From: Astropecten irregularis
Lineage: Eukaryota; Echinodermata; Asteroidea; Paxillosida; Astropectinidae
Reading direction: 5' to 3'
NCBI GenBank assembly: GCA_963971285.1
Contig: OZ020255.1
Coordinates: 4,712,001 to 4,776,000 of the forward strand
Length of the DNA stretch: 64,000 bases
The notes under the pieces are model-generated. The model searched no databases. It was not told the DNA's origin and saw nothing but the letters and a program-made list of their open reading frames with translations. Numbering within the stretch: position 1 is the stretch's first letter; the number at the start of each line of letters is the position of its first letter. The position numbers and the translations under genes were made by a program. Positions 70 to 57,478 of the stretch are shown here, piece by piece.

Positions 70-551
70 GTATGTACATTTGCAAGAAGTATTCACCTTT
101 TGCTAAGATAAGACTGGGTTGGATAGTGTGTATATCAGTGTATAAACCATATGTATGATTAGACAGAGTAAATATGAAAGATATGTATTAAGTTGATATA
201 AATCCACTCCTAGCAAATTTTCTATTCAGAATATTACAAATGAAACTATATCAGAGACGCTGGTACAATTTGTGTTTGTTAACTTGTCGTGAATTTGAAA
301 TGAAACTGTGAACACATTTAATGCTCTGGCTGCATCAGAGATTCAATTTCATGACCTCCATATCATTAGGTTAGACATTTCACCTAGTGGACATCATTGT
401 GTCGATTGGAATAATATAGTATATAAAAAACCTATTGAATGAACCACTGGTCTTCAAATCAGTCAGCTCTTTCACTTCATAACTGTTTCGCTAGAGTTGA
501 ACGAAGGATTTACAGAAACTTTGTTATTGTTCATTTCTGTACACACTCCAG
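70..551 (+). other. Array intron between discoidin and Pro/Thr exons (repeated in every unit)
   Basis: This ~480 bp intron follows each discoidin exon. It carries the 5 bp indel (gtaaatatg versus gtaaataatttatg) that sorts units into short and long types. The short form is here and after exons ending at 5473, 9074, 12675 and 14473; the long form is after 1867, 3670, 7271 and 10872. Nothing else is recognised in it. Confidence 0.7.
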
Positions 552-659
552 TGGCCCCATCAACCACTACGCCGGTGTCGACAACAACCACACCAGTCCC
601 ACCATCAACCACTACACCAGTGGCCCCATCAACCACTCCAGTGGCCCCATCAACCACAG
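552..659 (+). CDS. Pro/Thr-rich mucin-type linker exon (array copy 1)
   Basis: A 108 nt, 36-codon phase 1-1 exon encoding repeats of the form (V-A/P-P-S-T-T-T/P). The acceptor is CACTCCAG at 544-551 and the donor GTAGGA at 660. Composition is almost only Thr, Pro, Ser, Val and Ala with no Cys, typical of a densely O-glycosylated extended spacer. It joins two discoidin-like exons in frame: the split codon G|TG gives Val at both junctions. This copy carries Ser (gtgtcg) in the middle of the tract, the marker that separates the two unit types of the array. The exact acceptor is by inspection; no other AG nearby preserves the frame as well. Confidence 0.78.
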
Positions 660-1405
660 GTAGGAATATACTTGTGAAAATTTTACTGAATTACTATTAC
701 ATTTTTTTGACCTCGTAGAGTACTTGAAATGAAGGAGACTTATATGGCTTGAATTTGTATTTAACAAGCTATGGACGGAGAGATTTGCTTTTAGTTGCTC
801 TAAATTCCGTAATGTTTCTTCTACCAATTTGCTGTCATTTTTGCTGCTGTCCTAGGCCTGTTTGTCTTATCTGTTCTCATTTAACTCATGAAGTCATGTA
901 CACAATGGCTTGTTAGGACCTATGACTTAAACCAGGAGAAATGTCCGTACACGTACTCTTCAGTGTGTCACAGCACATAGATACATGTAGTGCTGTCCAG
1001 CAGGGCAAAGCCAAAATACGGGACAGGTTAGCGATGCAAGCCACTGTGCAGTTAATGGGAGACTTAAGAGAATCAGTCTTCAAGTCAACAGCACACGCAC
1101 ACGCAATTGTGAGCATGGGCGCCTTGGTTTGCGCCTGCGCACTGGTGACTTGAAGACCGGTTCTCCAAATTCTCCCATTGCCTTGATTCAAAGTGCATTG
1201 CCCAAAAATGTCAACCAAATACACATTATTAGCAGGGTGTTGCTGAGTATGTCATGGTTCTGTTGCTGTTCATTCAGTTTAGCTTGCCCGAACTTTGTAT
1301 GGTATGCAAATTGGATCATCTTCTTCTTGATTTTTAAGGTACAGAGAATTTATATGTATATTCGATTGAGTAATTTTCTTATTTGTATTTTGTATCTTAC
1401 TAAAG
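660..1405 (+). other. Array intron between Pro/Thr and discoidin exons (repeated in every unit)
   Basis: This 746 bp intron recurs almost unchanged in all eight units. It begins GTAGGAATAT and ends in a T-rich tract before CTTACTAAAG. An open frame runs through it into the discoidin exon, but the part upstream of 1406 has no mucin or domain composition, and the splice sites explain the junction better. A stretch around 942-1160 includes a CACACGCACACGC run and a palindromic TTTGCGCCTGCGCAC segment of unknown origin. No RNA gene or transposon end was recognised. Confidence 0.6.
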
Positions 1406-1867
1406 TGACAACTACTGCACCACCATCTACAACTCCAAAAGTATGTGACGATGACCTGGACAAATATGATAAAGTGAAGGTGTCGAGACTGAATTCTGAT
1501 ACCAACTCGGGATTAAAACCAACTGATTGGTGGCGTCCAGATGATCCCTCCTCCAATGAAACATCACCTTACACTGATTCCTATTTGGAGATCACCTTTG
1601 ATGTCAGTGTTAATGTGAAATCAGTGACCATCAAAAATAAGAAAGATGCACCTGAGGATGTACGAGTTGCCGTGGAGTTTCAACCGGGTGACAGGGCAAT
1701 GTACTCTCCATTGTCTGATGATGACAAACCTGTTATCTTAAAGGGCAAGGCAGACAGCAAGATCAGTTTACCAGATAGCTTGCCTGCTGTAACAGGATTG
1801 AGAGTGTACCTTGTGTCACCCAGTCCAAACTTCAAATACCAAGTGTCCTTACATGGTTGTGAAGAAG
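1406..1867 (+). CDS. Discoidin (F5/8 type C)-like domain exon (array copy 1)
   Basis: A 462 nt, 154-codon phase 1-1 exon. It starts with a short Thr/Pro lead (residues 1-12), then Cys at 14, a motif SRLNSDTNSG, the tryptophan pair of TDWWRPDD, an N-glycosylation sequon in SNETS, a strand YLEITFDVSVNV and ends LHGCEE. One Cys at each end with a final strand closing in G-C is the layout of discoidin/F5/8 type C beta-sandwich domains, which bind glycans or phospholipids. Length (about 140 residues) fits. Sequence similarity is weak by eye, so the family call is inference from layout. This copy has NETS and DVRVAVEF, like the second block near 49 kb; the next seven have NETT and DVQVALEF. It is therefore the most ancestral-looking full copy of this array. 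Confidence 0.85.
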
Positions 1868-2354
1868 GTATGTGCATTTGCAAGAAGTATTCACCTTTTG
1901 CCAAGATAAGACTGGGTTGGATAGTGTGTATATCAGTGTATAAACCATATGTATGATTAGACAGAGTAAATAATTTATGAAAGATATGTATTAAGTTGAT
2001 ATAAATCCACTCCTAGCAAATTTTCTATTCAGAATATTACAAATGAAACTATATCAGAGACGCTGGTACAATTTGTGTTTGTTAACTTGTCGTGAATTTG
2101 AAATGAAACTGTGAACACATTTAATGCTCTGGCTGCATCAGAGATTCAATTTCATGACCTCCATATCATTAGGTTAGACATTTCACCTAGTGGACATCAT
2201 TGTGTCGATTGGAATAATATAGTATATAACAAACCTATTGAATGAACCACTGGTCTTCAAATCAGTCAGCTCTTTCACTTCATAACTGTTTCGCTAGAGT
2301 TGAACGAAGGATTTACAGAAACTTTGTTATTGTTCATTTCTGTACACACTCCAG

Positions 2355-2462
2355 TGGCCCCATCAACCACTACGCCGGTGTCGACAACAACCACACCAGT
2401 CCCACCATCAACCACTACACCAGTGGCCCCATCAACCACTCCAGTGGCCCCATCAACCACAG
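2355..2462 (+). CDS. Pro/Thr-rich linker exon (array copy 2)
   Basis: Same 36-codon phase 1-1 exon as at 552-659 and identical in protein, with the Ser (gtgtcg) marker. Its intron donor side reads gtgaacatt where copy 1 has gtgaaaatt; that change is shared by all later copies. Confidence 0.78.
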
Positions 2463-3208
2463 GTAGGAATATACTTGTGAACATTTTACTGAATTACTAT
2501 TACATTTTTTTGACCTCGTAGAGTACTTGAAATGAAGGAGACTTATATGGCTTGAATTTGTATTTAACAAGCTATGGACGGAGAGATTTGCTTTTAGTTG
2601 CTCTAAATTCCGTAATGTTTCTTCTACCAATTTGCTGTCATTTTTGCTGCTGTCCTAGGCCTGTTTGTCTTATCTGTTCTCATTTAACTCATGAAGTCAT
2701 GTACACAATGGCTTGTTAGGACCTATGACTTAAACCAGGAGAAATGTCCGTACACGTACTCTTCAGTGTGTCACAGCACATAGATACATGTAGTGCTGTC
2801 CAGCAGGGCAAAGCCAAAATACGGGACAGGTTAGCGATGCAAGCCACTGTGCAGTTAATGGGAGACTTAAGAGAATCAGTCTTCAAGTCAACAGCACACG
2901 CACACGCAATTGTGAGCATGGGCGCCTTGGTTTGCGCCTGCGCACTGGTGACTTGAAGACCGGTTCTCCAAATTCTCCCATTGCCTTGATTCAAAGTGCA
3001 TTGCCCAAAAATGTCAACCAAATACACATTATTAGCAGGGTGTTGCTGAGTATGTCATGGTTCTGTTGCTGTTCATTCAGTTTAGCTTGCCCGAACTTTG
3101 TATGGTATGCAAATTGGATCATCTTCTTCTTGATTTTTAAGGTACAGAAAATTTATATGTATATTCGATTGAGTAATTTTCTTATTTGTATTTTGTATCT
3201 TACTAAAG

Positions 3209-3670
3209 TGACAACTACTGCACCACCATCTACAACTCCAAAAGTATGTGACGATGACCTGGACAAATATGATAAAGTGAAGGTGTCGAGACTGAATTCT
3301 GATACCAACTCGGGATTAAAACCAACTGATTGGTGGCGTCCAGATGATCCCTCCTCCAATGAAACAACACCTTACACTGATTCCTATTTGGAGATCACCT
3401 TTGATGTCAGTGTTAATGTGAAATCAGTGACCATTAAAAATAAGAAAGATGCACCTGAGGATGTACAAGTTGCCTTGGAGTTTCAACCGGGTGACAGGGC
3501 AATGTACTCTCCATTGTCTGATGATGACAAACCTGTTATCTTAAAGGGCAAGGCAGACAGCAAGATCAGTTTACCAGATAGCTTGCCTGCTGTAACAGGA
3601 TTGAGAGTGTACCTTGTGTCACCCAGTCCAAACTTCAAATACCAAGTGTCCTTACATGGTTGTGAAGAAG
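3209..3670 (+). CDS. Discoidin-like domain exon (array copy 2)
   Basis: 154 codons, phase 1-1. It carries the NETT and DVQVALEF variants that define copies 2-8. The intron just upstream has a private substitution (cagaaaattt instead of cagagaattt), which marks this unit as distinct from its neighbours and argues against simple assembly duplication of one read cluster. Confidence 0.85.
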
Positions 3671-4157
3671 GTATGTGCATTTGCAAGAAGTATTCACCTT
3701 TTGCCAAGATAAGACTGGGTTGGATAGTGTGTATATCAGTGTATAAACCATATGTATGATTAGACAGAGTAAATAATTTATGAAAGATATGTATTAAGTT
3801 GATATAAATCCACTCCTAGCAAATTTTCTATTCAGAATATTACAAATGAAACTATATCAGAGACGCTGGTACAATTTGTGTTTGTTAACTTGTCGTGAAT
3901 TTGAAATGAAACTGTGAACACATTTAATGCTCTGGCTGCATCAGAGATTCAATTTCATGACCTCCATATCATTAGGTTAGACATTTCACCTAGTGGACAT
4001 CATTGTGTCGATTGGAATAATATAGTATATAAAAAACCTATTGAATGAACCACTGGTCTTCAAATCAGTCAGCTCTTTCACTTCATAACTGTTTCGCTAG
4101 AGTTGAACGAAGGATTTACAGAAACTTTGTTATTGTTCATTTCTGTACACACTCCAG

Positions 4158-4265
4158 TGGCCCCATCAACCACTACGCCGGTGCCGACAACAACCACACC
4201 AGTCCCACCATCAACCACTACACCAGTGGCCCCATCAACCACTCCAGTGGCCCCATCAACCACAG
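4158..4265 (+). CDS. Pro/Thr-rich linker exon (array copy 3, Pro type)
   Basis: 36 codons, phase 1-1. The middle codon is gtgccg, giving Pro in place of Ser. This is the first unit of the alternating Pro/Ser pattern that continues to the end of the array. Confidence 0.78.
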
Positions 4266-5011
4266 GTAGGAATATACTTGTGAACATTTTACTGAATTAC
4301 TATTACATTTTTTTGACCTCGTAGAGTACTTGAAATGAAGGAGACTTATATGGCTTGAATTTGTATTTAACAAGCTATGGACGGAGAGATTTGCTTTTAG
4401 TTGCTCTAAATTCCGTAATGTTTCTTCTACCAATTTGCTGTCATTTTTGCTGCTGTCCTAGGCCTGTTTGTCTTATCTGTTCTCATTTAACTCATGAAGT
4501 CATGTACACAATGGCTTGTTAGGACCTATGACTTAAACCAGGAGAAATGTCCGTACACGTACTCTTCAGTGTGTCACAGCACATAGATACATGTAGTGCT
4601 GTCCAGCAGGGCAAAGCCAAAATACGGGACAGGTTAGCGATGCAAGCCACTGTGCAGTTAATGGGAGACTTAAGAGAATCAGTCTTCAAGTCAACAGCAC
4701 ACGCACACGCAATTGTGAGCATGGGCGCCTTGGTTTGCGCCTGCGCACTGGTGACTTGAAGACCGGTTCTCCAAATTCTCCCATTGCCTTGATTCAAAGT
4801 GCATTGCCCAAAAATGTCAACCAAATACACATTATTAGCAGGGTGTTGCTGAGTATGTCATGGTTCTGTTGCTGTTCATTCAGTTTAGCTTGCCCGAACT
4901 TTGTATGGTATGCAAATTGGATCATCTTCTTCTTGATTTTTAAGGTACAGAGAATTTATATGTATATTCGATTGAGTAATTTTCTTATTTGTATTTTGTA
5001 TCTTACTAAAG

Positions 5012-5473
5012 TGACAACTACTGCACCACCATCTACAACTCCAAAAGTATGTGACGATGACCTGGACAAATATGATAAAGTGAAGGTGTCGAGACTGAAT
5101 TCTGATACCAACTCGGGATTAAAACCAACTGATTGGTGGCGTCCAGATGATCCCTCCTCCAATGAAACAACACCTTACACTGATTCCTATTTGGAGATCA
5201 CCTTTGATGTCAGTGTTAATGTGAAATCAGTGACCATTAAAAATAAGAAAGATGCACCTGAGGATGTACAAGTTGCCTTGGAGTTTCAACCGGGTGACAG
5301 GGCAATGTACTCTCCATTGTCTGATGATGACAAACCTGTTATCTTAAAGGGCAAGGCAGACAGCAAGATCAGTTTACCAGATAGCTTGCCTGCTGTAACA
5401 GGATTGAGAGTGTACCTTGTGTCACCCAGTCCAAACTTCAAATACCAAGTGTCCTTACATGGTTGTGAAGAAG
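5012..5473 (+). CDS. Discoidin-like domain exon (array copy 3)
   Basis: 154 codons, protein identical to copies 2 and 4-8. It is followed by the short form of the intron (no AATTT insertion), linking the Pro-type linker unit to the short intron type. Confidence 0.85.
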
Positions 5474-5955
5474 GTATGTGCATTTGCAAGAAGTATTCAC
5501 CTTTTGCCAAGATAAGACTGGGTTGGATAGTGTGTATATCAGTGTATAAACCATATGTATGATTAGACAGAGTAAATATGAAAGATATGTATTAAGTTGA
5601 TATAAATCCACTCCTAGCAAATTTTCTATTCAGAATATTACAAATGAAACTATATCAGAGACGCTGGTACAATTTGTGTTTGTTAACTTGTCGTGAATTT
5701 GAAATGAAACTGTGAACACATTTAATGCTCTGGCTGCATCAGAGATTCAATTTCATGACCTCCATATCATTAGGTTAGACATTTCACCTAGTGGACATCA
5801 TTGTGTCGATTGGAATAATATAGTATATAAAAAACCTATTGAATGAACCACTGGTCTTCAAATCAGTCAGCTCTTTCACTTCATAACTGTTTCGCTAGAG
5901 TTGAACGAAGGATTTACAGAAACTTTGTTATTGTTCATTTCTGTACACACTCCAG

Positions 5956-6063
5956 TGGCCCCATCAACCACTACGCCGGTGTCGACAACAACCACACCAG
6001 TCCCACCATCAACCACTACACCAGTGGCCCCATCAACCACTCCAGTGGCCCCATCAACCACAG
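5956..6063 (+). CDS. Pro/Thr-rich linker exon (array copy 4, Ser type)
   Basis: 36 codons, phase 1-1, Ser variant (gtgtcg). Second member of the first Pro/Ser dimer. Confidence 0.78.
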
Positions 6064-6809
6064 GTAGGAATATACTTGTGAACATTTTACTGAATTACTA
6101 TTACATTTTTTTGACCTCGTAGAGTACTTGAAATGAAGGAGACTTATATGGCTTGAATTTGTATTTAACAAGCTATGGACGGAGAGATTTGCTTTTAGTT
6201 GCTCTAAATTCCGTAATGTTTCTTCTACCAATTTGCTGTCATTTTTGCTGCTGTCCTAGGCCTGTTTGTCTTATCTGTTCTCATTTAACTCATGAAGTCA
6301 TGTACACAATGGCTTGTTAGGACCTATGACTTAAACCAGGAGAAATGTCCGTACACGTACTCTTCAGTGTGTCACAGCACATAGATACATGTAGTGCTGT
6401 CCAGCAGGGCAAAGCCAAAATACGGGACAGGTTAGCGATGCAAGCCACTGTGCAGTTAATGGGAGACTTAAGAGAATCAGTCTTCAAGTCAACAGCACAC
6501 GCACACGCAATTGTGAGCATGGGCGCCTTGGTTTGCGCCTGCGCACTGGTGACTTGAAGACCGGTTCTCCAAATTCTCCCATTGCCTTGATTCAAAGTGC
6601 ATTGCCCAAAAATGTCAACCAAATACACATTATTAGCAGGGTGTTGCTGAGTATGTCATGGTTCTGTTGCTGTTCATTCAGTTTAGCTTGCCCGAACTTT
6701 GTATGGTATGCAAATTGGATCATCTTCTTCTTGATTTTTAAGGTACAGAGAATTTATATGTATATTCGATTGAGTAATTTTCTTATTTGTATTTTGTATC
6801 TTACTAAAG

Positions 6810-7271
6810 TGACAACTACTGCACCACCATCTACAACTCCAAAAGTATGTGACGATGACCTGGACAAATATGATAAAGTGAAGGTGTCGAGACTGAATTC
6901 TGATACCAACTCGGGATTAAAACCAACTGATTGGTGGCGTCCAGATGATCCCTCCTCCAATGAAACAACACCTTACACTGATTCCTATTTGGAGATCACC
7001 TTTGATGTCAGTGTTAATGTGAAATCAGTGACCATTAAAAATAAGAAAGATGCACCTGAGGATGTACAAGTTGCCTTGGAGTTTCAACCGGGTGACAGGG
7101 CAATGTACTCTCCATTGTCTGATGATGACAAACCTGTTATCTTAAAGGGCAAGGCAGACAGCAAGATCAGTTTACCAGATAGCTTGCCTGCTGTAACAGG
7201 ATTGAGAGTGTACCTTGTGTCACCCAGTCCAAACTTCAAATACCAAGTGTCCTTACATGGTTGTGAAGAAG
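6810..7271 (+). CDS. Discoidin-like domain exon (array copy 4)
   Basis: 154 codons, NETT/DVQVALEF type. It is followed by the long intron form with the AATTT insertion. Confidence 0.85.
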
Positions 7272-7758
7272 GTATGTGCATTTGCAAGAAGTATTCACCT
7301 TTTGCCAAGATAAGACTGGGTTGGATAGTGTGTATATCAGTGTATAAACCATATGTATGATTAGACAGAGTAAATAATTTATGAAAGATATGTATTAAGT
7401 TGATATAAATCCACTCCTAGCAAATTTTCTATTCAGAATATTACAAATGAAACTATATCAGAGACGCTGGTACAATTTGTGTTTGTTAACTTGTCGTGAA
7501 TTTGAAATGAAACTGTGAACACATTTAATGCTCTGGCTGCATCAGAGATTCAATTTCATGACCTCCATATCATTAGGTTAGACATTTCACCTAGTGGACA
7601 TCATTGTGTCGATTGGAATAATATAGTATATAAAAAACCTATTGAATGAACCACTGGTCTTCAAATCAGTCAGCTCTTTCACTTCATAACTGTTTCGCTA
7701 GAGTTGAACGAAGGATTTACAGAAACTTTGTTATTGTTCATTTCTGTTCACACTCCAG

Positions 7759-7866
7759 TGGCCCCATCAACCACTACGCCGGTGCCGACAACAACCACAC
7801 CAGTCCCACCATCAACCACTACACCAGTGGCCCCATCAACCACTCCAGTGGCCCCATCAACCACAG
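7759..7866 (+). CDS. Pro/Thr-rich linker exon (array copy 5, Pro type)
   Basis: 36 codons, Pro variant. The acceptor tract reads ctgttcacactccag instead of ctgtacacactccag; this improves the pyrimidine tract and is shared only with the copy at 11360, exactly two units (3601 bp) away. Confidence 0.78.
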
Positions 7867-8612
7867 GTAGGAATATACTTGTGAACATTTTACTGAATTA
7901 CTATTACATTTTTTTGACCTCGTAGAGTACTTGAAATGAAGGAGACTTATATGGCTTGAATTTGTATTTAACAAGCTATGGACGGAGAGATTTGCTTTTA
8001 GTTGCTCTAAATTCCGTAATGTTTCTTCTACCAATTTGCTGTCATTTTTGCTGCTGTCCTAGGCCTGTTTGTCTTATCTGTTCTCATTTAACTCATGAAG
8101 TCATGTACACAATGGCTTGTTAGGACCTATGACTTAAACCAGGAGAAATGTCCGTACACGTACTCTTCAGTGTGTCACAGCACATAGATACATGTAGTGC
8201 TGTCCAGCAGGGCAAAGCCAAAATACGGGACAGGTTAGCGATGCAAGCCACTGTGCAGTTAATGGGAGACTTAAGAGAATCAGTCTTCAAGTCAACAGCA
8301 CACGCACACGCAATTGTGAGCATGGGCGCCTTGGTTTGCGCCTGCGCACTGGTGACTTGAAGACCGGTTCTCCAAATTCTCCCATTGCCTTGATTCAAAG
8401 TGCATTGCCCAAAAATGTCAACCAAATACACATTATTAGCAGGGTGTTGCTGAGTATGTCATGGTTCTGTTGCTGTTCATTCAGTTTAGCTTGCCCGAAC
8501 TTTGTATGGTATGCAAATTGGATCATCTTCTTCTTGATTTTTAAGGTACAGAGAATTTATATGTATATTCGATTGAGTAATTTTCTTATTTGTATTTTGT
8601 ATCTTACTAAAG

Positions 8613-9074
8613 TGACAACTACTGCACCACCATCTACAACTCCAAAAGTATGTGACGATGACCTGGACAAATATGATAAAGTGAAGGTGTCGAGACTGAA
8701 TTCTGATACCAACTCGGGATTAAAACCAACTGATTGGTGGCGTCCAGATGATCCCTCCTCCAATGAAACAACACCTTACACTGATTCCTATTTGGAGATC
8801 ACCTTTGATGTCAGTGTTAATGTGAAATCAGTGACCATTAAAAATAAGAAAGATGCACCTGAGGATGTACAAGTTGCCTTGGAGTTTCAACCGGGTGACA
8901 GGGCAATGTACTCTCCATTGTCTGATGATGACAAACCTGTTATCTTAAAGGGCAAGGCAGACAGCAAGATCAGTTTACCAGATAGCTTGCCTGCTGTAAC
9001 AGGATTGAGAGTGTACCTTGTGTCACCCAGTCCAAACTTCAAATACCAAGTGTCCTTACATGGTTGTGAAGAAG
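8613..9074 (+). CDS. Discoidin-like domain exon (array copy 5)
   Basis: 154 codons, identical in protein to copy 3 and followed by the short intron form, as expected for the Pro-type unit. Confidence 0.85.
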
Positions 9075-9556
9075 GTATGTGCATTTGCAAGAAGTATTCA
9101 CCTTTTGCCAAGATAAGACTGGGTTGGATAGTGTGTATATCAGTGTATAAACCATATGTATGATTAGACAGAGTAAATATGAAAGATATGTATTAAGTTG
9201 ATATAAATCCACTCCTAGCAAATTTTCTATTCAGAATATTACAAATGAAACTATATCAGAGACGCTGGTACAATTTGTGTTTGTTAACTTGTCGTGAATT
9301 TGAAATGAAACTGTGAACACATTTAATGCTCTGGCTGCATCAGAGATTCAATTTCATGACCTCCATATCATTAGGTTAGACATTTCACCTAGTGGACATC
9401 ATTGTGTCGATTGGAATAATATAGTATATAAAAAACCTATTGAATGAACCACTGGTCTTCAAATCAGTCAGCTCTTTCACTTCATAACTGTTTCGCTAGA
9501 GTTGAACGAAGGATTTACAGAAACTTTGTTATTGTTCATTTCTGTACACACTCCAG

Positions 9557-9664
9557 TGGCCCCATCAACCACTACGCCGGTGTCGACAACAACCACACCA
9601 GTCCCACCATCAACCACTACACCAGTGGCCCCATCAACCACTCCAGTGGCCCCATCAACCACAG
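9557..9664 (+). CDS. Pro/Thr-rich linker exon (array copy 6, Ser type)
   Basis: 36 codons, Ser variant, acceptor with ctgtacac. Identical to copies 4 and 8. Confidence 0.78.
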
Positions 9665-10410
9665 GTAGGAATATACTTGTGAACATTTTACTGAATTACT
9701 ATTACATTTTTTTGACCTCGTAGAGTACTTGAAATGAAGGAGACTTATATGGCTTGAATTTGTATTTAACAAGCTATGGACGGAGAGATTTGCTTTTAGT
9801 TGCTCTAAATTCCGTAATGTTTCTTCTACCAATTTGCTGTCATTTTTGCTGCTGTCCTAGGCCTGTTTGTCTTATCTGTTCTCATTTAACTCATGAAGTC
9901 ATGTACACAATGGCTTGTTAGGACCTATGACTTAAACCAGGAGAAATGTCCGTACACGTACTCTTCAGTGTGTCACAGCACATAGATACATGTAGTGCTG
10001 TCCAGCAGGGCAAAGCCAAAATACGGGACAGGTTAGCGATGCAAGCCACTGTGCAGTTAATGGGAGACTTAAGAGAATCAGTCTTCAAGTCAACAGCACA
10101 CGCACACGCAATTGTGAGCATGGGCGCCTTGGTTTGCGCCTGCGCACTGGTGACTTGAAGACCGGTTCTCCAAATTCTCCCATTGCCTTGATTCAAAGTG
10201 CATTGCCCAAAAATGTCAACCAAATACACATTATTAGCAGGGTGTTGCTGAGTATGTCATGGTTCTGTTGCTGTTCATTCAGTTTAGCTTGCCCGAACTT
10301 TGTATGGTATGCAAATTGGATCATCTTCTTCTTGATTTTTAAGGTACAGAGAATTTATATGTATATTCGATTGAGTAATTTTCTTATTTGTATTTTGTAT
10401 CTTACTAAAG

Positions 10411-10872
10411 TGACAACTACTGCACCACCATCTACAACTCCAAAAGTATGTGACGATGACCTGGACAAATATGATAAAGTGAAGGTGTCGAGACTGAATT
10501 CTGATACCAACTCGGGATTAAAACCAACTGATTGGTGGCGTCCAGATGATCCCTCCTCCAATGAAACAACACCTTACACTGATTCCTATTTGGAGATCAC
10601 CTTTGATGTCAGTGTTAATGTGAAATCAGTGACCATTAAAAATAAGAAAGATGCACCTGAGGATGTACAAGTTGCCTTGGAGTTTCAACCGGGTGACAGG
10701 GCAATGTACTCTCCATTGTCTGATGATGACAAACCTGTTATCTTAAAGGGCAAGGCAGACAGCAAGATCAGTTTACCAGATAGCTTGCCTGCTGTAACAG
10801 GATTGAGAGTGTACCTTGTGTCACCCAGTCCAAACTTCAAATACCAAGTGTCCTTACATGGTTGTGAAGAAG
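10411..10872 (+). CDS. Discoidin-like domain exon (array copy 6)
   Basis: 154 codons, followed by the long intron form. Copies 5+6 and 7+8 look like successive duplications of a two-unit block. Confidence 0.85.
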
Positions 10873-11359
10873 GTATGTGCATTTGCAAGAAGTATTCACC
10901 TTTTGCCAAGATAAGACTGGGTTGGATAGTGTGTATATCAGTGTATAAACCATATGTATGATTAGACAGAGTAAATAATTTATGAAAGATATGTATTAAG
11001 TTGATATAAATCCACTCCTAGCAAATTTTCTATTCAGAATATTACAAATGAAACTATATCAGAGACGCTGGTACAATTTGTGTTTGTTAACTTGTCGTGA
11101 ATTTGAAATGAAACTGTGAACACATTTAATGCTCTGGCTGCATCAGAGATTCAATTTCATGACCTCCATATCATTAGGTTAGACATTTCACCTAGTGGAC
11201 ATCATTGTGTCGATTGGAATAATATAGTATATAAAAAACCTATTGAATGAACCACTGGTCTTCAAATCAGTCAGCTCTTTCACTTCATAACTGTTTCGCT
11301 AGAGTTGAACGAAGGATTTACAGAAACTTTGTTATTGTTCATTTCTGTTCACACTCCAG

Positions 11360-11467
11360 TGGCCCCATCAACCACTACGCCGGTGCCGACAACAACCACA
11401 CCAGTCCCACCATCAACCACTACACCAGTGGCCCCATCAACCACTCCAGTGGCCCCATCAACCACAG
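11360..11467 (+). CDS. Pro/Thr-rich linker exon (array copy 7, Pro type)
   Basis: 36 codons, Pro variant with the ctgttcac acceptor change shared only with copy 5. Confidence 0.78.
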
Positions 11468-12213
11468 GTAGGAATATACTTGTGAACATTTTACTGAATT
11501 ACTATTACATTTTTTTGACCTCGTAGAGTACTTGAAATGAAGGAGACTTATATGGCTTGAATTTGTATTTAACAAGCTATGGACGGAGAGATTTGCTTTT
11601 AGTTGCTCTAAATTCCGTAATGTTTCTTCTACCAATTTGCTGTCATTTTTGCTGCTGTCCTAGGCCTGTTTGTCTTATCTGTTCTCATTTAACTCATGAA
11701 GTCATGTACACAATGGCTTGTTAGGACCTATGACTTAAACCAGGAGAAATGTCCGTACACGTACTCTTCAGTGTGTCACAGCACATAGATACATGTAGTG
11801 CTGTCCAGCAGGGCAAAGCCAAAATACGGGACAGGTTAGCGATGCAAGCCACTGTGCAGTTAATGGGAGACTTAAGAGAATCAGTCTTCAAGTCAACAGC
11901 ACACGCACACGCAATTGTGAGCATGGGCGCCTTGGTTTGCGCCTGCGCACTGGTGACTTGAAGACCGGTTCTCCAAATTCTCCCATTGCCTTGATTCAAA
12001 GTGCATTGCCCAAAAATGTCAACCAAATACACATTATTAGCAGGGTGTTGCTGAGTATGTCATGGTTCTGTTGCTGTTCATTCAGTTTAGCTTGCCCGAA
12101 CTTTGTATGGTATGCAAATTGGATCATCTTCTTCTTGATTTTTAAGGTACAGAGAATTTATATGTATATTCGATTGAGTAATTTTCTTATTTGTATTTTG
12201 TATCTTACTAAAG

Positions 12214-12675
12214 TGACAACTACTGCACCACCATCTACAACTCCAAAAGTATGTGACGATGACCTGGACAAATATGATAAAGTGAAGGTGTCGAGACTGA
12301 ATTCTGATACCAACTCGGGATTAAAACCAACTGATTGGTGGCGTCCAGATGATCCCTCCTCCAATGAAACAACACCTTACACTGATTCCTATTTGGAGAT
12401 CACCTTTGATGTCAGTGTTAATGTGAAATCAGTGACCATTAAAAATAAGAAAGATGCACCTGAGGATGTACAAGTTGCCTTGGAGTTTCAACCGGGTGAC
12501 AGGGCAATGTACTCTCCATTGTCTGATGATGACAAACCTGTTATCTTAAAGGGCAAGGCAGACAGCAAGATCAGTTTACCAGATAGCTTGCCTGCTGTAA
12601 CAGGATTGAGAGTGTACCTTGTGTCACCCAGTCCAAACTTCAAATACCAAGTGTCCTTACATGGTTGTGAAGAAG
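12214..12675 (+). CDS. Discoidin-like domain exon (array copy 7)
   Basis: 154 codons, NETT/DVQVALEF type, short downstream intron form. Confidence 0.85.
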
Positions 12676-13157
12676 GTATGTGCATTTGCAAGAAGTATTC
12701 ACCTTTTGCCAAGATAAGACTGGGTTGGATAGTGTGTATATCAGTGTATAAACCATATGTATGATTAGACAGAGTAAATATGAAAGATATGTATTAAGTT
12801 GATATAAATCCACTCCTAGCAAATTTTCTATTCAGAATATTACAAATGAAACTATATCAGAGACGCTGGTACAATTTGTGTTTGTTAACTTGTCGTGAAT
12901 TTGAAATGAAACTGTGAACACATTTAATGCTCTGGCTGCATCAGAGATTCAATTTCATGACCTCCATATCATTAGGTTAGACATTTCACCTAGTGGACAT
13001 CATTGTGTCGATTGGAATAATATAGTATATAAAAAACCTATTGAATGAACCACTGGTCTTCAAATCAGTCAGCTCTTTCACTTCATAACTGTTTCGCTAG
13101 AGTTGAACGAAGGATTTACAGAAACTTTGTTATTGTTCATTTCTGTACACACTCCAG

Positions 13158-13265
13158 TGGCCCCATCAACCACTACGCCGGTGTCGACAACAACCACACC
13201 AGTCCCACCATCAACCACTACACCAGTGGCCCCATCAACCACTCCAGTGGCCCCATCAACCACAG
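13158..13265 (+). CDS. Pro/Thr-rich linker exon (array copy 8, Ser type)
   Basis: 36 codons, Ser variant. Last linker exon of this type in the window; the next Thr-rich exon (15401) is unrelated in sequence. Confidence 0.78.
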
Positions 13266-14011
13266 GTAGGAATATACTTGTGAACATTTTACTGAATTAC
13301 TATTACATTTTTTTGACCTCGTAGAGTACTTGAAATGAAGGAGACTTATATGGCTTGAATTTGTATTTAACAAGCTATGGACGGAGAGATTTGCTTTTAG
13401 TTGCTCTAAATTCCGTAATGTTTCTTCTACCAATTTGCTGTCATTTTTGCTGCTGTCCTAGGCCTGTTTGTCTTATCTGTTCTCATTTAACTCATGAAGT
13501 CATGTACACAATGGCTTGTTAGGACCTATGACTTAAACCAGGAGAAATGTCCGTACACGTACTCTTCAGTGTGTCACAGCACATAGATACATGTAGTGCT
13601 GTCCAGCAGGGCAAAGCCAAAATACGGGACAGGTTAGCGATGCAAGCCACTGTGCAGTTAATGGGAGACTTAAGAGAATCAGTCTTCAAGTCAACAGCAC
13701 ACGCACACGCAATTGTGAGCATGGGCGCCTTGGTTTGCGCCTGCGCACTGGTGACTTGAAGACCGGTTCTCCAAATTCTCCCATTGCCTTGATTCAAAGT
13801 GCATTGCCCAAAAATGTCAACCAAATACACATTATTAGCAGGGTGTTGCTGAGTATGTCATGGTTCTGTTGCTGTTCATTCAGTTTAGCTTGCCCGAACT
13901 TTGTATGGTATGCAAATTGGATCATCTTCTTCTTGATTTTTAAGGTACAGAGAATTTATATGTATATTCGATTGAGTAATTTTCTTATTTGTATTTTGTA
14001 TCTTACTAAAG

Positions 14012-14473
14012 TGACAACTACTGCACCACCATCTACAACTCCAAAAGTATGTGACGATGACCTGGACAAATATGATAAAGTGAAGGTGTCGAGACTGAAT
14101 TCTGATACCAACTCGGGATTAAAACCAACTGATTGGTGGCGTCCAGATGATCCCTCCTCCAATGAAACAACACCTTACACTGATTCCTATTTGGAGATCA
14201 CCTTTGATGTCAGTGTTAATGTGAAATCAGTGACCATTAAAAATAAGAAAGATGCACCTGAGGATGTACAAGTTGCCTTGGAGTTTCAACCGGGTGACAG
14301 GGCAATGTACTCTCCATTGTCTGATGATGACAAACCTGTTATCTTAAAGGGCAAGGCAGACAGCAAGATCAGTTTACCAGATAGCTTGCCTGCTGTAACA
14401 GGATTGAGAGTGTACCTTGTGTCACCCAGTCCAAACTTCAAATACCAAGTGTCCTTACATGGTTGTGAAGAAG
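14012..14473 (+). CDS. Discoidin-like domain exon (array copy 8, last)
   Basis: 154 codons, still identical in protein to copies 2-7, although the intron behind it (from about 14586) carries many private substitutions. The exon sits on the recently homogenised side of the boundary. It splices in phase 1 to the Thr-rich exon at 15401. Confidence 0.85.
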
Positions 14474-14828
14474 GTATGTGCATTTGCAAGAAGTATTCAC
14501 CTTTTGCCAAGATAAGACTGGGTTGGATAGTGTGTATATCAGTGTATAAACCATATGTATGATTAGACAGAGTAAATATGAAAGATGTGTATTTAGTTGA
14601 TATAAATCCACTCCTAGCATATTTTCTATTCTGAATATTACAAATGAAACTTTATCAGAGACGCTGGTACAATTTTTGTTCGTTAACTTGTCATGAATTT
14701 GAAATGAAACTGTGAACACATTTAATGCTCTGGCTGCTTCAGAGATTCAATTTCATGACCTCCATATTATTAGGTTAGACATCTCACCAAGTGGACATCA
14801 TTGTATTGATTGGAATAATATATCATGG
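14474..14828 (+). repeat. Degenerate tail of the last array unit
   Basis: Homologous to the intron after every discoidin exon but with scattered differences (aaagatgtgtatttag for aaagatatgtattaag, catcattgtattgat for catcattgtgtcgat). Homology stops at the atcatggcaggt stretch. This is the old edge of the array that escaped recent homogenisation. Confidence 0.75.
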
Positions 14829-17520: not shown

Positions 17521-17743
17521 GAATTAGATTTCATCAGCATCTTTGAAATTGACAGCAGAACCTTGAATATTTTCCTCAGATACCATGCTGAGTTGCAATC
17601 AGTTTATTGACGTTTTGTCTAGTGAGCCATATATATGACATCCACAGATAGTACTTAAAAGATTTTGGAAACTTTAAATTATCATTAAAAACGTTATAAA
17701 CGGACAATTAAGATTTGAGGCTTTGCACGGTGACAATTGATTG

Positions 17744-17874
17744 GTATGTGGATCGGTTTGCGGAAACACCATGTAATAATCGTTCGTACTTTCGCACTTC
17801 TATTTCGTTACCACTTCTCCCAATTAAGGTCTCAATGTTTCGACCGATCCACATTTCCGCAAACCGATCCACAT
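17744..17874. mobile_element. Foldback element with hammerhead-type remnant (deleted copy)
   Basis: The arms tatgtggatcggtttgcgg and its complement flank a shortened centre containing ggtctcaatgtttcgacc, which on the minus strand reads GGTCGAAACATTGAGACC: half of the ribozyme-like core seen in full at 29135-29399. The opposite half is deleted. Confidence 0.55.
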
Positions 17875-17966
17875 AACGATTTGACAATTAATAGTGATCT
17901 TTTAATGCTGATCCAATGAATAATTTGCCCAAAATGAATTCTGGTGATTGTTTTATTTAATTATAG

Positions 17967-21803: not shown

Positions 21804-21908
21804 CCTGGTGATAAGTGGACTAATCCTAGTGACAGTTGCAGTGAGTGTAGCTGCTTCAGTAATTCCATCAGTTGCTTCCCCATTGCCTGTCCCACTGTGG
21901 TTTGTGCG
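21804..21908 (+). CDS. VWC domain exon, central part
   Basis: Phase 0-0, 35 codons beginning PGDKWTNPSDSC. C-x2-C-x-C-x6-C-x5-C is the VWC core, with the conserved Trp of the first strand (W-x-x-x-x-D-x-C). It follows the TIL exon at 20449 and is closed by the exon at 24736. The intervening intron carries the 54 bp minisatellite. Confidence 0.8.
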
Positions 21909-22141: not shown

Positions 22142-24067
22142 AGGTCTCCTGATGATGACTAGAGCAGGCTAGGCGAAACGTTGAGACCTTACGAGAGGTC
22201 TCCTGATGATGACTAGAGCAGGCTAGTCAAAACGTCGAGACCTTACAAGAGGTCTCCTGATGAGGACTAGAGCAGGCTAGTCGAAACGTTGAGACCTTAC
22301 GAGAAGTCTCCTGATGATGACTAGAACAGGCTAGTCAAAACGTCGAGACCTTACGAGAGGTTTCCAGATGAGGACTAGAGCAGGCTAGTCGAAACGTTGA
22401 GACCTTACGACAGGTCTCCTGATGATGACTAGAGCAGGCTAGTCAAAACGTCGAGACCTTACGAGAGGATTCCAGATGAGGACCAGAGCAGGCTAGTCGA
22501 AACGTTGAGACCTTACGACAGGTCTCCTGATGAGGACTAGAGCAGGCTAGCCAAAACGTTGAGACCTTACGAGAAGTCTCCTGATGATGACTAGAACAGG
22601 CTAGTCAAAACGTCGAGACCTTACGAGAGGTTTCCAGATGAGGACTAGAGCAGGCTAGTCGAAACGTTGAGACCTTACGACAGGTCTCCTGATGATGACT
22701 AGAGCAGGCTAGTCAAAACGTCGAGACCTTACGAGAGGATTCCAGATGAGGACTAGAGCAGGCTAGTCGAAACGTTGAGACCTTACGACAGGTCTCCTGA
22801 TGAGGACTAGAGCAGGCTAGCCAAAACGTTGAGACCTTACGAGAGGTCTCCTGATGATGACTAGAGCAGGCTAGTCGAAACGTTGAGACCTTACATGCAT
22901 GAGGTCTCCTGATGATGACTAGAGCAGGCTAGTTGAAACGTCGAGACCTTACGAGAGGTCTCCTGATGATGACTAGAGCAGGCTAGTCAAAACGTCGAGA
23001 CCTTACAAGAGGTCTCCTGATGAGGACTAGAGCAGGCTAGTCGAAACGTCGAGACCTTACGAGAGGATTCCAGATGAGGACTAGAGCAGGCTAGTCGAAA
23101 CGTTGAGACCTTACGACAGGTCTCCTGATGAGGACTAGAGCAGGCTAGCCAAAACGTTGAGACCTTACGAGAGGTCTCCTGATGATGACTAGAGCAGGCT
23201 AGTCGAAACGTTGAGACCTTACATGAGGTCTCCTGATGATGACTAGAGCAGGCTAGTTGAAACGTCGAGACCTTACGAGAGGTCTCCTGATGATGACTAG
23301 AGCAGGCTAGTCAAAACGTCGAGACCTTACAAGAGGTCTCCTGATGAGGACTAGAGCAGGCTAGTCGAAACGTTGAGACCTTACGAGAAGTCTCCTGATG
23401 ATGACTAGAGCAGGCTAGTCAAAACGTCGAGACCTTACGAGAGGTTTCCAGATGAGGACTAGAGCAGGCTAGTCGAAACGTTGAGACCTTACAACAGGTC
23501 TCCTGATGAGGACTAGAGCAGGCTAGTCGAAACGTTGAGACCTTACATGAGGTCTCCTGATGATGACTAGAGAAGGCTAGTTGAAACGTCGAGACCTTAT
23601 GAGAGGTCTCCTGATGATGACTAGAGCAGGCTAGTCAAAACGTCGAAACCTTACGAGAGGTCTCCTGATGATGACTAGAGCAGGCTAGTCGAAACGTTGA
23701 GACCTTACGACAGGTCTCCTGATGATAACTAGAGCAGGCTAGTTGAAACGTTGAGACCTTACGAGAGGTCTCCTGATGATGACTAGAGCAGGCTAGTTAA
23801 AACGTTTAGACCTTACGAGAGGTCTCCTGATGATGACTAGAGCAGGGTGGTTAAAACGTTGAGACCTTACGAGAGGTCTCCTGATGAGGACTAGAGCAGG
23901 CTAGTTAAAACGTTGAAACCTTACGAGAGGTCTCCTGATGAGGACTAGAGCAGGCTAGTCGAAACGTTGAGACCTTACGAGAGGTCTCCTGATGATGACT
24001 AGAGCAGGCTAGTTAAAACGTTGAAACCTTACGAGAGGTCTCCTGAGTAGGACTAGAGCAGGCTATA
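22142..24067 (+). repeat. Minisatellite of 54 bp units with type I hammerhead ribozyme core
   Basis: About 35 head-to-tail copies of a 54 bp unit, with a few length variants. Each unit contains CTGATGA (conserved C3-A9), a stem II hairpin GACTAG/CTAGTC closed by AGCAGG, GAAA (G12-A15.1), then CGTC or CGTT (cleavage triplet position), and GAGACC/GGTCTC as a 6 bp stem I with an 8 nt loop. The topology matches a type I hammerhead: stem I lies between the cleavage site and the next CTGATGA. Stem III is only the palindrome ACGT, so activity would need pairing between two copies. One extra base (T or G) lies between A9 and stem II. Many units carry core changes (CAGATGA, or AAAA for GAAA), so only part would be active. 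Activity is not shown by sequence alone. Confidence 0.72.
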
Positions 24068-24735: not shown

Positions 24736-24778
24736 AATCCAATAATTCCACCAGGTGAATGCTGTGGCTACTGTGAAG
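24736..24778 (+). CDS. VWC domain exon, closing part
   Basis: Phase 0 to phase 1, encoding NPIIPPGECCGYCE. The CC-x2-C closing motif completes the VWC module of 21804. The acceptor is TTACACAG and the donor GTAAAT. Confidence 0.77.
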
Positions 24779-25423: not shown

Positions 25424-25520
25424 GTAATTTAATGCAGGAGAGTTACAATATTAATATATCCAAATTACATCTTTTGTCTATGAAAGTCTGGTATTTTGGC
25501 AATAGATGCCCCTGTGGATA

Positions 25521-25962
25521 TACAGGGTGTCCCAGAAAAACGCAACACTATGTCGGGAACTATTATATTAAAATTAAACTGTTTATCACTTCAAGATTCA
25601 GATATATGATACAGTCATATATGTCTTGGCTTTCACCATGTAGAATTTAAGCAAAATCGGGCTGATATTGGCGAAAATATGACCAACTAGAGTACTCTTT
25701 AAAAACAAATTTGCAGTATTCCAGAATAAGTGGTCAACACACACATAATGTGTATTGAAAGAAAGATGAAAATTGGGCTTTGAGGTTGGGTAATTCAGTC
25801 TTAGTTTTTTCACTCAATTTCAGTCCAATTGTGCTCAAATTCTACATGTTGTTAGCCAGAACATGGCTGTATCACATATCTGAATCTTGAAGTGATAAAC
25901 AGTTTAATTTTAATATAATGTTTTCGACACAAAGTGTAGCGTTTTTTTTGGGACACCCTGTA
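25521..25962. mobile_element. Foldback MITE family 3 (TACAGGGTGTCCC ends)
   Basis: Ends TACAGGGTGTCCCAGAAAAA and its inverted counterpart ...GGGACACCCTGTA, with TA at both edges as for Tc1/mariner-type insertion. Long subterminal inverted arms (aaactgtttatcacttcaag and complement). About 440 bp, noncoding. Confidence 0.66.
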
Positions 25963-26088
25963 TACAGCTGCACCAATTGCATTGCTATGTTGAGGGACAT
26001 GTCACAGCAGGGTACATAGTTTTACAGCCATGGCGTATCGTCAGTGTACCTGTTTTCGAGGTATCCAGTTTTTGAGGGTTGACCTTCT

Positions 26089-27264: not shown

Positions 27265-27345
27265 CTTGAGTTTCCTGATGAAGGCTAGCAGTTCTAGCGG
27301 CCGAAACATTGCTACCAGCATCCAGTAACACAACATTGCGTGACT
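27265..27345 (+). ncRNA. Isolated hammerhead-like core (possible Penelope-type retroelement remnant)
   Basis: Contains CTGATGA, a stem II GGC..GCC with inner TAG/CTA, GAAA and CATT in the order of a type I hammerhead. Single copy without a matching stem I partner, so it cannot be active alone. Such motifs are known in the terminal repeats of Penelope-like retroelements. No reverse transcriptase is nearby; the assignment is tentative. Confidence 0.35.
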
Positions 27346-28976: not shown

Positions 28977-29134
28977 CAATAGCGCTCCGCACTTAAAATA
29001 GCACTGGATCTCAGACAAACATTGCAACCATGCAAATGCGTGTGGGTGTGCGCGTGCATGTGCACTACGTGTGTGAGACAATGTCTGTCTGACATCCGGG
29101 GATTTTGTGACGTCATTAGTGCGGAGTGCTATTG
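28977..29134. mobile_element. Foldback MITE family 6 (CAATAGCGCTCCGCACT ends), nested insertion
   Basis: The left caatagcgctccgcact and right agtgcggagtgctattg are inverted copies. The flanks gctttgcatggtgacaat (left) and ggtatatgtggatcgg (right) are contiguous in the family 7 copy at about 17717-17755, so this element is inserted inside family 7. Internal gtgtgcgcgtgcatgtgc tract. Confidence 0.65.
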
Positions 29135-29399
29135 GTATATGTGGATCGGTTTGCGGAAACACCATGTAATAATCGTTAGTACTTCGTACTTCTATATCGT
29201 TCGCACTTCTCGCAATTAAGGTCTCAACGTTTCGAATAGGCTTCTCTACTCCTCTTTAGTCCGTCTCCTGATGAGGACTAGAGCAAATTAGTCGAAACGT
29301 TCAGACCTTAATTGCGAGAAGTGCGAACGATATAGTAGTGTGAAGTACGAACGATTATTACATGGTGTTTCCGCAAACCGATCCACATACCAATTTGAA
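29135..29399. mobile_element. Foldback element carrying a hammerhead-like core at its centre
   Basis: Arms from ggtatatgtggatcggtt to the complement ending catacc, about 265 bp. At the centre on + are CTGATGA, stem II GACTA/TTAGTC, GAAACGTT and CAGACC; on the minus strand a decayed second core reads GAAACGTTGAGACC. Sequence closely resembles the 54 bp minisatellite unit at 22142, pointing to a common source. Confidence 0.65.
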
Positions 29400-48879: not shown

Positions 48880-49050
48880 TGTGTGCGTGGTTTCATGGCT
48901 TCTGACTGCCGAACGAACAAGGATAGTTGACTATTGGGGTCACCACCAACGTAGGGCTGGATAGCTCAGTTGGTAGAGCGCCTGTACGGTGTTCAGGAGG
49001 TCGCCGGTTTGAATCCCGCTCCAGTCAATTTTTCTTCGTTCACTTTTCAA
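48880..49050 (+). mobile_element. tRNA-derived SINE, family A, copy 2
   Basis: The tRNA-like part, 48954-49027, has good A (tagctcagttggtagagcg) and B (cggtttgaatcccg) boxes; the anticodon stem has a mismatch and position 33 is C. Flanks match 32324-32508, so this is the better preserved SINE copy. Confidence 0.68.
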
Positions 49051-49376
49051 AATATTTGTTATAATTAAAAAATAACTACGCTTTTACTATTGTTGAAATC
49101 TCTGGGTGATTTTGCCTCTAACATAATGTTAAACGTTCAACTGGGTTTTTGTATACCACTGAATTATTGTGATCCTTTGCATATTGTGTATATCTACCTC
49201 TCATGCTTACATGTATTTCTCAATGACTTTTAAAAATGAGAGCATTTTTGTATCAGACGTCACAGGAGACAATGTCTTTTGCTTTTTAGCATGCTAAGTT
49301 GTCATGCTTTATACACATAATAATTGGCATTTATAAATTTGTTTATTTGATTGTTCCTATGTGATTACTTTTGCAG
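49051..49376. other. Intron end related to other units of the second block
   Basis: The last ~120 bp (gagagcatttttgtatcagac to ctatgtgattacttttgcag) are paralogous to 58834-58979 and 61983-62123, so this is the conserved upstream intron end of the second block. Confidence 0.6.
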
Positions 49377-49823
49377 TGCCGTCTACGACTCCAAAAGTAT
49401 GTGACGATAACCTGGACAGTTATGATAAAGTGAAGGTGTCAAGACTGAATTCTGATACCAACTCGGGATTAAAACCAACTGATTGGTGGCGTCCAGATGA
49501 TCCCTCCTCCAATGAAACATCACCTTACACTGATTCCTATTTGGAGATCACCTTTGACGTCAGTGTTAATGTGGAATCAGTGACCATCAAAAATAAGGAC
49601 GATGCACCTGAGGATGTACGAGTTGCCGTGGAGTTTCAACCGGGTGACAGGCCAATTTACTATCCATTGTCTGAGGATGACAAACCTGTTATCTTAAAGG
49701 GCAAGGCAGACAGCAAGATCAGTTTACCAGATAGCTTGCCTGCTGTAACAGGATTGAGAGTGTACCTTGTGTCACCCAGTCCAAACTTCAAGTACCAAGT
49801 GGTTTTACATGGCTGCGAAGAAG
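49377..49823 (+). CDS. Discoidin-like domain exon (second block, copy 1)
   Basis: Phase 1-1, 149 codons after ACTTTTGCAG. It differs from the first-array exon by a shorter lead (VPSTTPKVC), DDNLDSYDKV, NVESV, KNKDDAPED and RPIYYPLSEDDK. Nearly all other codons, including silent positions, match array copy 1. Ends VVLHGCEE. The donor is GTATGT. Confidence 0.86.
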
Positions 49824-49981
49824 GTATGTATTTATACTTCTGTGGTTTTGAATAATCCTCTTTCTTGACAGAAATGAAGGGAATACTCTGGTGGAAGTTT
49901 TTATAGCCCCCTGTCTCACTTATAGAGGAGAGAAACAGGATTGGAGGGATTTGAGATTGAAATGGGAACCAAAGATGATCC

Positions 49982-50929: not shown

Positions 50930-51109
50930 TCCCTGGCTTCTTGACATTAATCAATGACATGTTAAGACCTAAAAACTATGGTAAAGTTGGCACAACTCAG
51001 TTTGCAAGCTCCATGATAGGGAGATATATCCTGTTTATACTGTAGTCTATCGTGTCAGACTTATTAAGAAAATACCTTTCAACAATTTAAAAATTTTCCC
51101 ACACTACAG

Positions 51110-51250
51110 TCCCTCCAACTACAACTGAGAGAGCAACTACTGTTGTTTCAACAACTGGCCCACCATTTACTACAGAGGAAACTACAACAGTAGTAACAAC
51201 TACTCCTAAGTCAACAACAAAAGAGACAACCACTGTCAAGTCCACTACAG
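51110..51250 (+). CDS. Thr-rich linker exon (47 codons)
   Basis: Phase 1-1, beginning VPPTTTERATTVVSTTGPPF and ending TTTVKSTT. Acceptor CACACTACAG, donor GTATGT. Thr exceeds 40% of residues; acidic and basic residues (E, K) alternate with Thr runs. Confidence 0.78.
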
Positions 51251-54869: not shown

Positions 54870-54920
54870 CATTTTTGCATTTTTGTTTGATTTGATTTTC
54901 CTATGTGATTACTTTTGCAG

Positions 54921-56506: not shown

Positions 56507-56521
56507 CATTTTTGCATTTTT

Positions 56522-57442: not shown

Positions 57443-57478
57443 TTTTGATTTGATTTTCCTATGTGATTACTTTTGCAG

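Follow-up and report, generated by a model that had tools for sequence, protein, structure and literature searches.

The window, by which we mean the whole analyzed stretch of 64,000 nucleotides of the Astropecten irregularis genome, contains a 54-bp minisatellite between two candidate exon pieces of a plus-strand gene, together with relatives of its repeat unit. The main features, with coordinates counted from the first nucleotide of the window, are as follows.

17740..17884, no strand assigned: second, internally deleted foldback copy of the dispersed element found at 29131..29394
21804..21908, plus strand: exon piece with the beginning of a VWC-like module, matching PF00093 over positions 8-44 of 57 at a sub-threshold 23.8 bits (cut-off 27.6), followed by a GT donor
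22142..24065, plus strand: 54-bp minisatellite with 35 complete units and one truncated unit at its end; every complete unit is a minimal hammerhead-like motif that has an extra base after A9
22844..22955, plus strand: neighboring units 14 and 15, each with an intact core and an extra U
23172..23279, plus strand: neighboring units 20 and 21, each with an intact core and an extra U; the 108-nt dimer used for folding
24736..24778, plus strand: candidate next exon, a cysteine-rich continuation between AG and GT, recognized by eye
27275..27309, plus strand: diverged relative of the motif with CTGATGA, an extra A, GGCTAG..GGCC and GAAACATT, its ACGT decayed to ACAT; it resembles family B of the genome-wide list
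29131..29394, no strand assigned: dispersed element in foldback form, its two arms arranged head to head

Since the plus-strand exon pieces break off at 21908 and continue at 24736, the array would be located in an intron and in the sense orientation to the gene, which supports the intronic place assigned to it by an earlier, sequence-only reading of this DNA (the second exon having been recognized by eye). The same strand also has a weak TIL match, and VWC and LDLa matches lie downstream.

The window has several other repeated features. Eight near-identical tandem duplications of ~1.8 kb occupy positions 548-14822, each with a near-identical stop-to-stop ORF of 321 aa; these ORFs hold a repeated domain, and the one ORF examined had no Pfam match. 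Eight more, diverged copies of this domain were found at 49337-62578, with a reverse-transcriptase remnant (49852-50834; RVT_1, 19.6 bits, below the cut-off) between two of them. A tRNA match at 48955-49027 (49.9 bits) is the only Rfam hit at gathering score in the window. In addition, an inverted-repeat element with 57-nt inner arms (96% complementary) and 22-nt outer arms lies at 25519-25964, and a dispersed repeat of ~360 bp with ACCAAAGTATGA ends occurs at many places within 16150-40600, in about ten full or partial copies.

Analysis of the array with TRF gave positions 22142-24065, a period of 54, 35.6 copies, 90% matches and 0% indels, while cutting by script gave 35 full units, a truncated 36th that starts at 24036, and 4 extra bases at one junction (unit 14/15). 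The minisatellite of ~35 copies and 54 bp described in the sequence-only reading was thereby confirmed. The unit is AGGTCTC-CTGATGA-[T/G]-GACTAG-AGCAGG-CTAGTC-GAAA-CGT[T/C]-GAGACCT-TACGAG, that is, stem I, CTGATGA, extra base, stem II, GAAA, ACGT, a pyrimidine, and stem I again, and the letters of each full unit bear out the hammerhead order ascribed to it. The stem I arms (AGGTCTC/GAGACCT) flank the core as had been claimed, but they allow 7 bp with a 6-nt loop rather than 6 bp with an 8-nt loop; stem II (GACTAG/CTAGTC) has a six-base loop. The ACGT is unchanged in all 35 units, and the next position, H17, is always a pyrimidine (T in 22 units and C in 13). The non-canonical base between A9 and stem II, which had been pointed out before, is likewise present in 35 of 35 units, as a single T (20 units) or G (15 units).

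The core itself is more variable. CTGATGA and GAAA are indeed the consensus, but the core is not uniform as had been described: only 13 of the 35 units have the two core segments unaltered and 22 have a core change, with G12>A (GAAA to AAAA) in 16 units and U4>A (CTGATGA to CAGATGA) in six. Compared with hammerheads in general, the core letters (CUGANGA, GAA, A15.1-U16.1, NUH) are all found in 13 of 35 units, and ACGU with a pyrimidine at H17 in all 35; the general form has no nucleotide between A9 and 10.1, and every unit departs from it there by its extra base. Among the 13 units with an intact core, the extra base is U in eight and G in five, and four of the 34 neighboring pairs (14/15, 20/21, 26/27, and 29/30) have both cores intact. 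Core positions within the array had no clear extra conservation (two of 14 are variable, versus 19 of 40 elsewhere; Fisher p 0.054), and this comparison did not show selection on the core. Judging by the letters, G12>A, C11.1>U and the variation at the CpG of the loop look like CpG decay. No element tail was found at the 3' side of the array.

Because ACGT is self-complementary, stem III cannot close inside a single unit, and the earlier claim that this palindrome could pair only between copies is supported. We propose that cleavage would need two copies, either neighbors on one RNA or two RNAs, with their ACGU segments paired. In neighbors, the ACGU of copy n would pair with that of copy n+1 and the GAGACCU of n with the AGGUCUC of n+1; copy n would then be cut after the Y of ACGUY by the core of its neighbor n+1. 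This neighbor geometry works simultaneously in two ways: the hairpin between copies n and n+1 corresponds to a type III hammerhead, while the outer strands make the other half of a double hammerhead. The type I topology claimed earlier thus fits the outer strands; it is not exclusive, because the same letters in tandem serve both type I and type III, the latter through the hairpin stem I between neighbors.

We scored a neighboring pair as compatible with cleavage if the core of n+1 was intact, at least five flush stem I pairs, four stem III pairs and at least five stem II pairs could form, and an NUH was present in n. Ten of the 34 pairs qualified by sequence, six of them with an extra U. By predicted folding, a single unit forms a plain hairpin (-19.3 kcal/mol), and the minimum free energy (MFE) fold includes all three helices in 16 of the 34 neighbor stretches taken from ACGU to ACGU (mostly 58 nt). 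For the 108-nt dimer of units 20-21, in contrast, the MFE structure is a long imperfect hairpin (-40.9 kcal/mol, versus -32.0 kcal/mol for the double hammerhead). The array has the Penelope-type sequence form, in which helix III is ACGU only; the dimer MFE is the other fold. Since the dimer prefers the long imperfect hairpin, the model predicts slow cleavage at best, and we infer that intact copies would cleave slowly. The release of ~54-nt RNAs by the array as a whole, which the sequence-only reading had suggested, is unsupported as written, because the core changes in 22 of 35 units are expected to stop or cripple cleavage.

The sequence-only reading had located the motif in the array correctly and missed its occurrence across the genome. 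The strict motif with one extra base had 1640 matches in the 475.7-Mb genome and none in the reversed control, while the same stem letters without the extra base had no matches genome-wide. Within the window, the evidence for the motif outside the array is weaker. Three descriptor matches with a stem II of at least 4 bp were found there, only two of which look related (in 300 Markov-1 control sequences the mean was 0.36, and one of the 300 reached three); with a stem II of at least 6 bp there was one match, and 12 of 300 random sequences also had one. An unbiased genome sample of 11 stretches (110 kb) gave four descriptor matches, including one clear relative (L185).

For a search less dependent on the stem letters, we used the generic pattern CTGANGANGB, gap, CGAAACGT, which requires no pairing beyond 10.1/11.1: it fixes pair 1 of stem II, forbids A at 10.2, fixes one base between A9 and G, and leaves the rest free. 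Altogether 536 genome matches were obtained versus nine in the reversed control. The 100 matches listed include families with different stem II sequences, such as GGCCAG/CTGGCC, GGCTAG..AGCC, GTAT/ATAC, and relatives of GACTAG/CTAGTC. Position 7 among these 100 was T in 74, A in 13, G in 12 and C in one, and such variation is allowed in a hammerhead. Stem II pairs 2, 3 and 4 form in 89, 86 and 83 of these matches, exceeding the maxima of 86, 82 and 77 among 1000 shuffles, and pairs 5 and 6 in 29 and 39, not above shuffles. The same tendency was seen for 31 unique 33-mers, where pairs 2, 3 and 4 form in 28, 26 and 26 (values reached by two, four and two of 2000 shuffles) and pairs 5 and 6 have no clear excess (124 and 1076 of 2000 shuffles). 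In three of the 100 listed matches two or four bases precede GACTAG, hence the gap after A9 is regular, not absolutely fixed.

In an alignment of 45 copies, which were hand-chosen and nearly all found by patterns containing most of the core, 76.2% of the stem cells are paired versus 70.8% after shuffling (0 of 500 shuffles), and 48 cells have changes on both sides versus 23 (0 of 500). Pairing falls to 24-38% when the partner strand is slid. The number of pairs with both-side change (nine, versus 7.4 shuffled; 93 of 500) and that of further pair types (27, versus 24.1; 57 of 500) were not unusual. Stem II is paired in 94% of cells and stem I in 61%; the family A copies were found by a pattern that fixes stem II, and stem I was unconstrained in the pattern-found copies. 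The invariant columns of the alignment are exactly C-T-G-A-N-G-A, G10.1, the GAAA segment and the T that precedes the cut site, although the fetch patterns demanded most of these letters. As in hammerheads generally, stems I and II lie beside the core and covary, with stem II one base off A9. The hammerhead resemblance is not chance.

The covariance models of Rfam detected no hammerhead at gathering score in the window. The best hit was Hammerhead_3 with 19.6 bits against a cut-off of 48.5, and a second array of the same kind (L164, described below) reached 28.0 bits, also below gathering. The sequence-only reading had staked its proposal on a covariance-model hit above threshold, and by that formal standard the proposal fails; we judge the standard to be too strict. 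As a yardstick, IMG/VR was scanned with patterns for hammerhead-like motifs, and the contigs were then searched with Rfam at E up to 0.5. A first set was reduced to 19 structured motifs with four or more base pairs in stem II, of which some look like chance hits, and a second to 13 rows (stem II of at least 3 bp). Two phage contigs, L055 and L078, have two hammerhead-like motifs each with an extra A after A9 (one motif pair compared letter for letter between them is identical), and Rfam at this setting gave no match to these motifs. On phage contig L026, the first motif has an extra G, and Rfam scored the neighboring motif with 36.6 bits (cut-off 37); on L005, seven hammerhead-like motifs without an extra base gave a single sub-threshold match of 23.5 bits. 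The missing threshold hit is thus weak contrary evidence, because Rfam also missed the extra-base motifs of L055 and L078. As the tested loci scored below threshold, this class of hammerheads may be under-counted in animal genomes. None of the 84 and 69 loose-pattern stretches from IMG/VR was judged to be an array like that in the window. As a separate observation on the phage contigs, several hammerhead-like motifs followed by GGAG-type sequences are present in L005 (minus strand), L055 (6140-6300 and 6900-7060) and L078, and stem III differs between both L055 copies with pairing kept.

Apart from the second array, we examined 33 motif copies in 27 loci, using rough criteria for arms and tails. 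Most of them have the motif at the front of a short element, ~120-160 bp in length, which occurs with two kinds of 3' end. Upstream of 19 of the 33 copies, we found pieces of an inverted arm, placed head to head, whereas 14 have none; the latter start no more than a few bases from GTCTC, next to other DNA. The ~26 bases that precede GTCTC are shared by two loci, L156 and L172, which means that GTCTC is not in every case the start of the element; no ORF was found upstream of the motif in these two loci. Repeats of at least 7 bp resembling target site duplications (TSDs) flank four of 13 solo copies, compared with five of 156 mismatched flank pairs, and are absent from the other nine. These putative TSDs are 7-11 bp long, the clearest being an 11-base duplication in L178. 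In the window, the center of the 29131-29394 foldback contains a near copy of the array unit (29261-29308, plus strand) and a decayed inverted one. Elsewhere, at C1 10839616, 10844842, 10850076 and 10855277 (minus strand), four motif copies follow each other at ~5.2-kb spacing, forming a tandem array whose larger repeat unit includes a head-to-head element.

The second array, L164, has 21 units of 54-55 bp, and both core segments are intact in 20 of them, with an extra base of G in 18 and T in two. Its last unit runs directly into the tail of the dispersed element, a continuity which makes it likely that arrays of this type arose as expansions of the element's 5' end. The two arrays contrast in that the core is lost in 22 of 35 units of the window array versus one of 21 in L164.

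The arrangement of the copies agrees with that of the pLTRs of Penelope-like elements in having head-to-head copies, solo copies and short TSD-like repeats (the last in four of 13 solo copies). The pointer to these elements in the sequence-only reading is supported by this structure. Turning to proteins, we found 60 GIY-YIG matches in the genome, and the one ORF examined has RVT_1 and GIY-YIG. The hammerhead descriptor had no match in the five GIY-YIG loci scanned (L213-L217). A hammerhead of family D sits on the stop codon of an ORF remnant (L218, 1691-2057), its CTGATGA core containing the stop; read in this way, L156 and L172 likewise stop at the TGA and have no long ORF. The remnant beside family D may have the look of a GIY-YIG motif; it went unmatched in Pfam, in the protein database and in a comparison with L215. 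The Penelope link is therefore one of structure only, because the five GIY-YIG loci have no hammerhead and the family D remnant is unmatched. The primary papers on the minimal hammerheads of Penelope-like elements are reportedly those of Cervera & de la Pena (2014) and Lunse et al. (2017).

Based on these observations, we consider it probable that the array is a minisatellite amplification, by now partly decayed, of a Penelope-type minimal hammerhead at the 5' end of a short dispersed retroelement. The 5' end of the element would be a minimal hammerhead with stems I and II around CUGANGA/GAAA and a stem III of ACGU, and the extra base between A9 and stem II is a regular trait of the family to which the array belongs. 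Read directly from the letters are the motif and its family across the genome, its position at the front of most element copies examined, the covariation of stems between families, and the continuity of one array with the tail of the element. Two further steps are conjectural: the element may have been mobilized by Penelope-type reverse transcription, and the intronic array may be a decaying by-product without a function of its own.

An unlikely alternative is that the element is a palindromic DNA element of the MITE or foldback type, whose nested inverted repeats mimic a hammerhead, and that the array is an ordinary hairpin minisatellite. Long palindromes are common among the copies (29131-29394 in the window; L155, L161, L175 and L179 elsewhere), 19 of the 33 copies have inverted-arm parts upstream, and the plain hairpin of the single unit at -19.3 kcal/mol would suit it as well. 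However, it does not account for the 14 copies that lack an opposite arm or for putative TSDs that vary between 7 and 11 bp, neither of which fits a MITE; nor would simple inverted repeats require that the invariant columns of the 45 copies coincide with the hammerhead core (bearing in mind that the fetch patterns demanded most of these letters), that position 7 vary as it does among the 100 matches listed, and that stem II covary.

We give somewhat less credence to an array that is active and used, being transcribed within the host intron and either releasing 54-nt linear or circular RNAs or tuning the pre-mRNA. Its sense orientation inside the intron, the ten of 34 neighboring pairs compatible with cleavage (six with the favorable extra U) and the intronic hammerhead of Schistosoma mucin genes (PMC2576457) are in line with such a role, but 22 of 35 units have a changed core, and in the Schistosoma case G12 is retained by a single gene group. 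Rather improbable, in our view, is that the 54-nt unit itself is a minimal mobile RNA, such that intact arrays (L164) release 54-nt circles, reverse transcription of the circles lays down tandem units, and insertion with TSDs creates a new array; if so, it would be a retro-replicating RNA barely larger than its ribozyme, and would belong to a hammerhead class with a regular extra core nucleotide. Least credible is a metazoan non-LTR retrozyme, a tandem repeat spread via small circular RNAs, since despite the tandem hammerhead units in an animal genome and the coral retrozyme tandems of up to 62-mers (PMC7229834), retrozymes are described with units of ~150-450 bp and canonical type I hammerheads (PMC7229834, PMC7761336) versus 54 bp and a stem III of ACGU only, and the dispersed form here has one hammerhead followed by a tail, occurring alone or in head-to-head arrangement rather than as a direct tandem.

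If the array is indeed an amplified 5' end of a Penelope-type element, the finding ties a short minisatellite to a ribozyme-bearing retroelement. It also provides a natural series on what minimal Penelope-type hammerheads need, consisting of two arrays with 20 of 21 and 13 of 35 intact cores, more than 1000 further copies, and several stem families. The regular extra nucleotide (1640 matches versus none without it) is directly testable, because the rates of one viroid hammerhead shift strongly with that letter. At the level of titles, literature searches for hammerhead ribozymes with minisatellites and for a sequence word of the motif returned no relevant report.

Several known systems share parts of this arrangement. 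The plus-strand hammerhead of chrysanthemum chlorotic mottle viroid likewise has one extra nucleotide between A9 and G10.1 and is active; at this position U performs best, 3-4 fold better than A, whose effect is moderately unfavorable, while C and G, the latter carried by 15 of the 35 array units, are strongly detrimental (PMC3705267). In contrast to the extra A of a viroid, the extra base here is U, G, A or C and belongs to genomic elements. As for the intronic location, the polymorphic mucin genes (SmPoMuc) of Schistosoma mansoni are an analogy only: a hammerhead lies in the intron of a secreted mucin-type gene and G12 is retained in one gene group only, but each gene is described with one hammerhead between exons 9 and 10 rather than a 35-unit array (PMC2576457). 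The satellites and retrozymes of newt, coral, mussel and axolotl are, like the array, tandem genomic repeats with hammerheads, and in those of amphibians stem III is likewise very weak, with a tetraloop that is palindromic, and cleavage takes place in dimers; the units of these repeats, ~150-450 bp long, include spacer, however, whereas the unit here barely exceeds the ribozyme (PMC7229834).

The closest resemblance is to the minimal type I hammerheads of Penelope-like elements, which have stems I and II and a bare helix III (PMC7761336, PMC7229834, PMC11167929). According to one review, they usually lack non-conserved helix III nucleotides, number in the thousands as both dispersed and tandem copies, and may cleave in dimeric form (PMC7761336); in coral, more than 6000 type I motifs include 1508 canonical ones, the rest being of the minimal Penelope-type kind (PMC7229834). 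The copies in A. irregularis resemble them in their dispersal by the thousands in animal genomes, their tandem occurrence and the dimers thought to be necessary. They differ in the 54-bp unit repeated 35 times outside a recognizable Penelope element, with no adjoining reverse transcriptase found, and, as far as the review descriptions go, in the regular extra base after A9. For the Anolis element, it is reported that the PAc hammerhead cuts with the element's protein present, while insertion in vitro does not need cleavage (PMC11167929). The pLTRs of Penelope elements, in the passages devoted to them, are often head to head, with a 5'-end palindrome and TSDs of 8-10 bp; the main text of that paper mentions hammerheads 0 times (PMC3846280). 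Compared with the pLTRs of Adineta vaga (~180-220 bp), the element described here is shorter (~120-160 bp), and no Penelope ORF was found next to it in the loci examined, but it shares with them the head-to-head copies, the palindrome at the 5' end, the short TSDs and the solo copies (PMC3846280).
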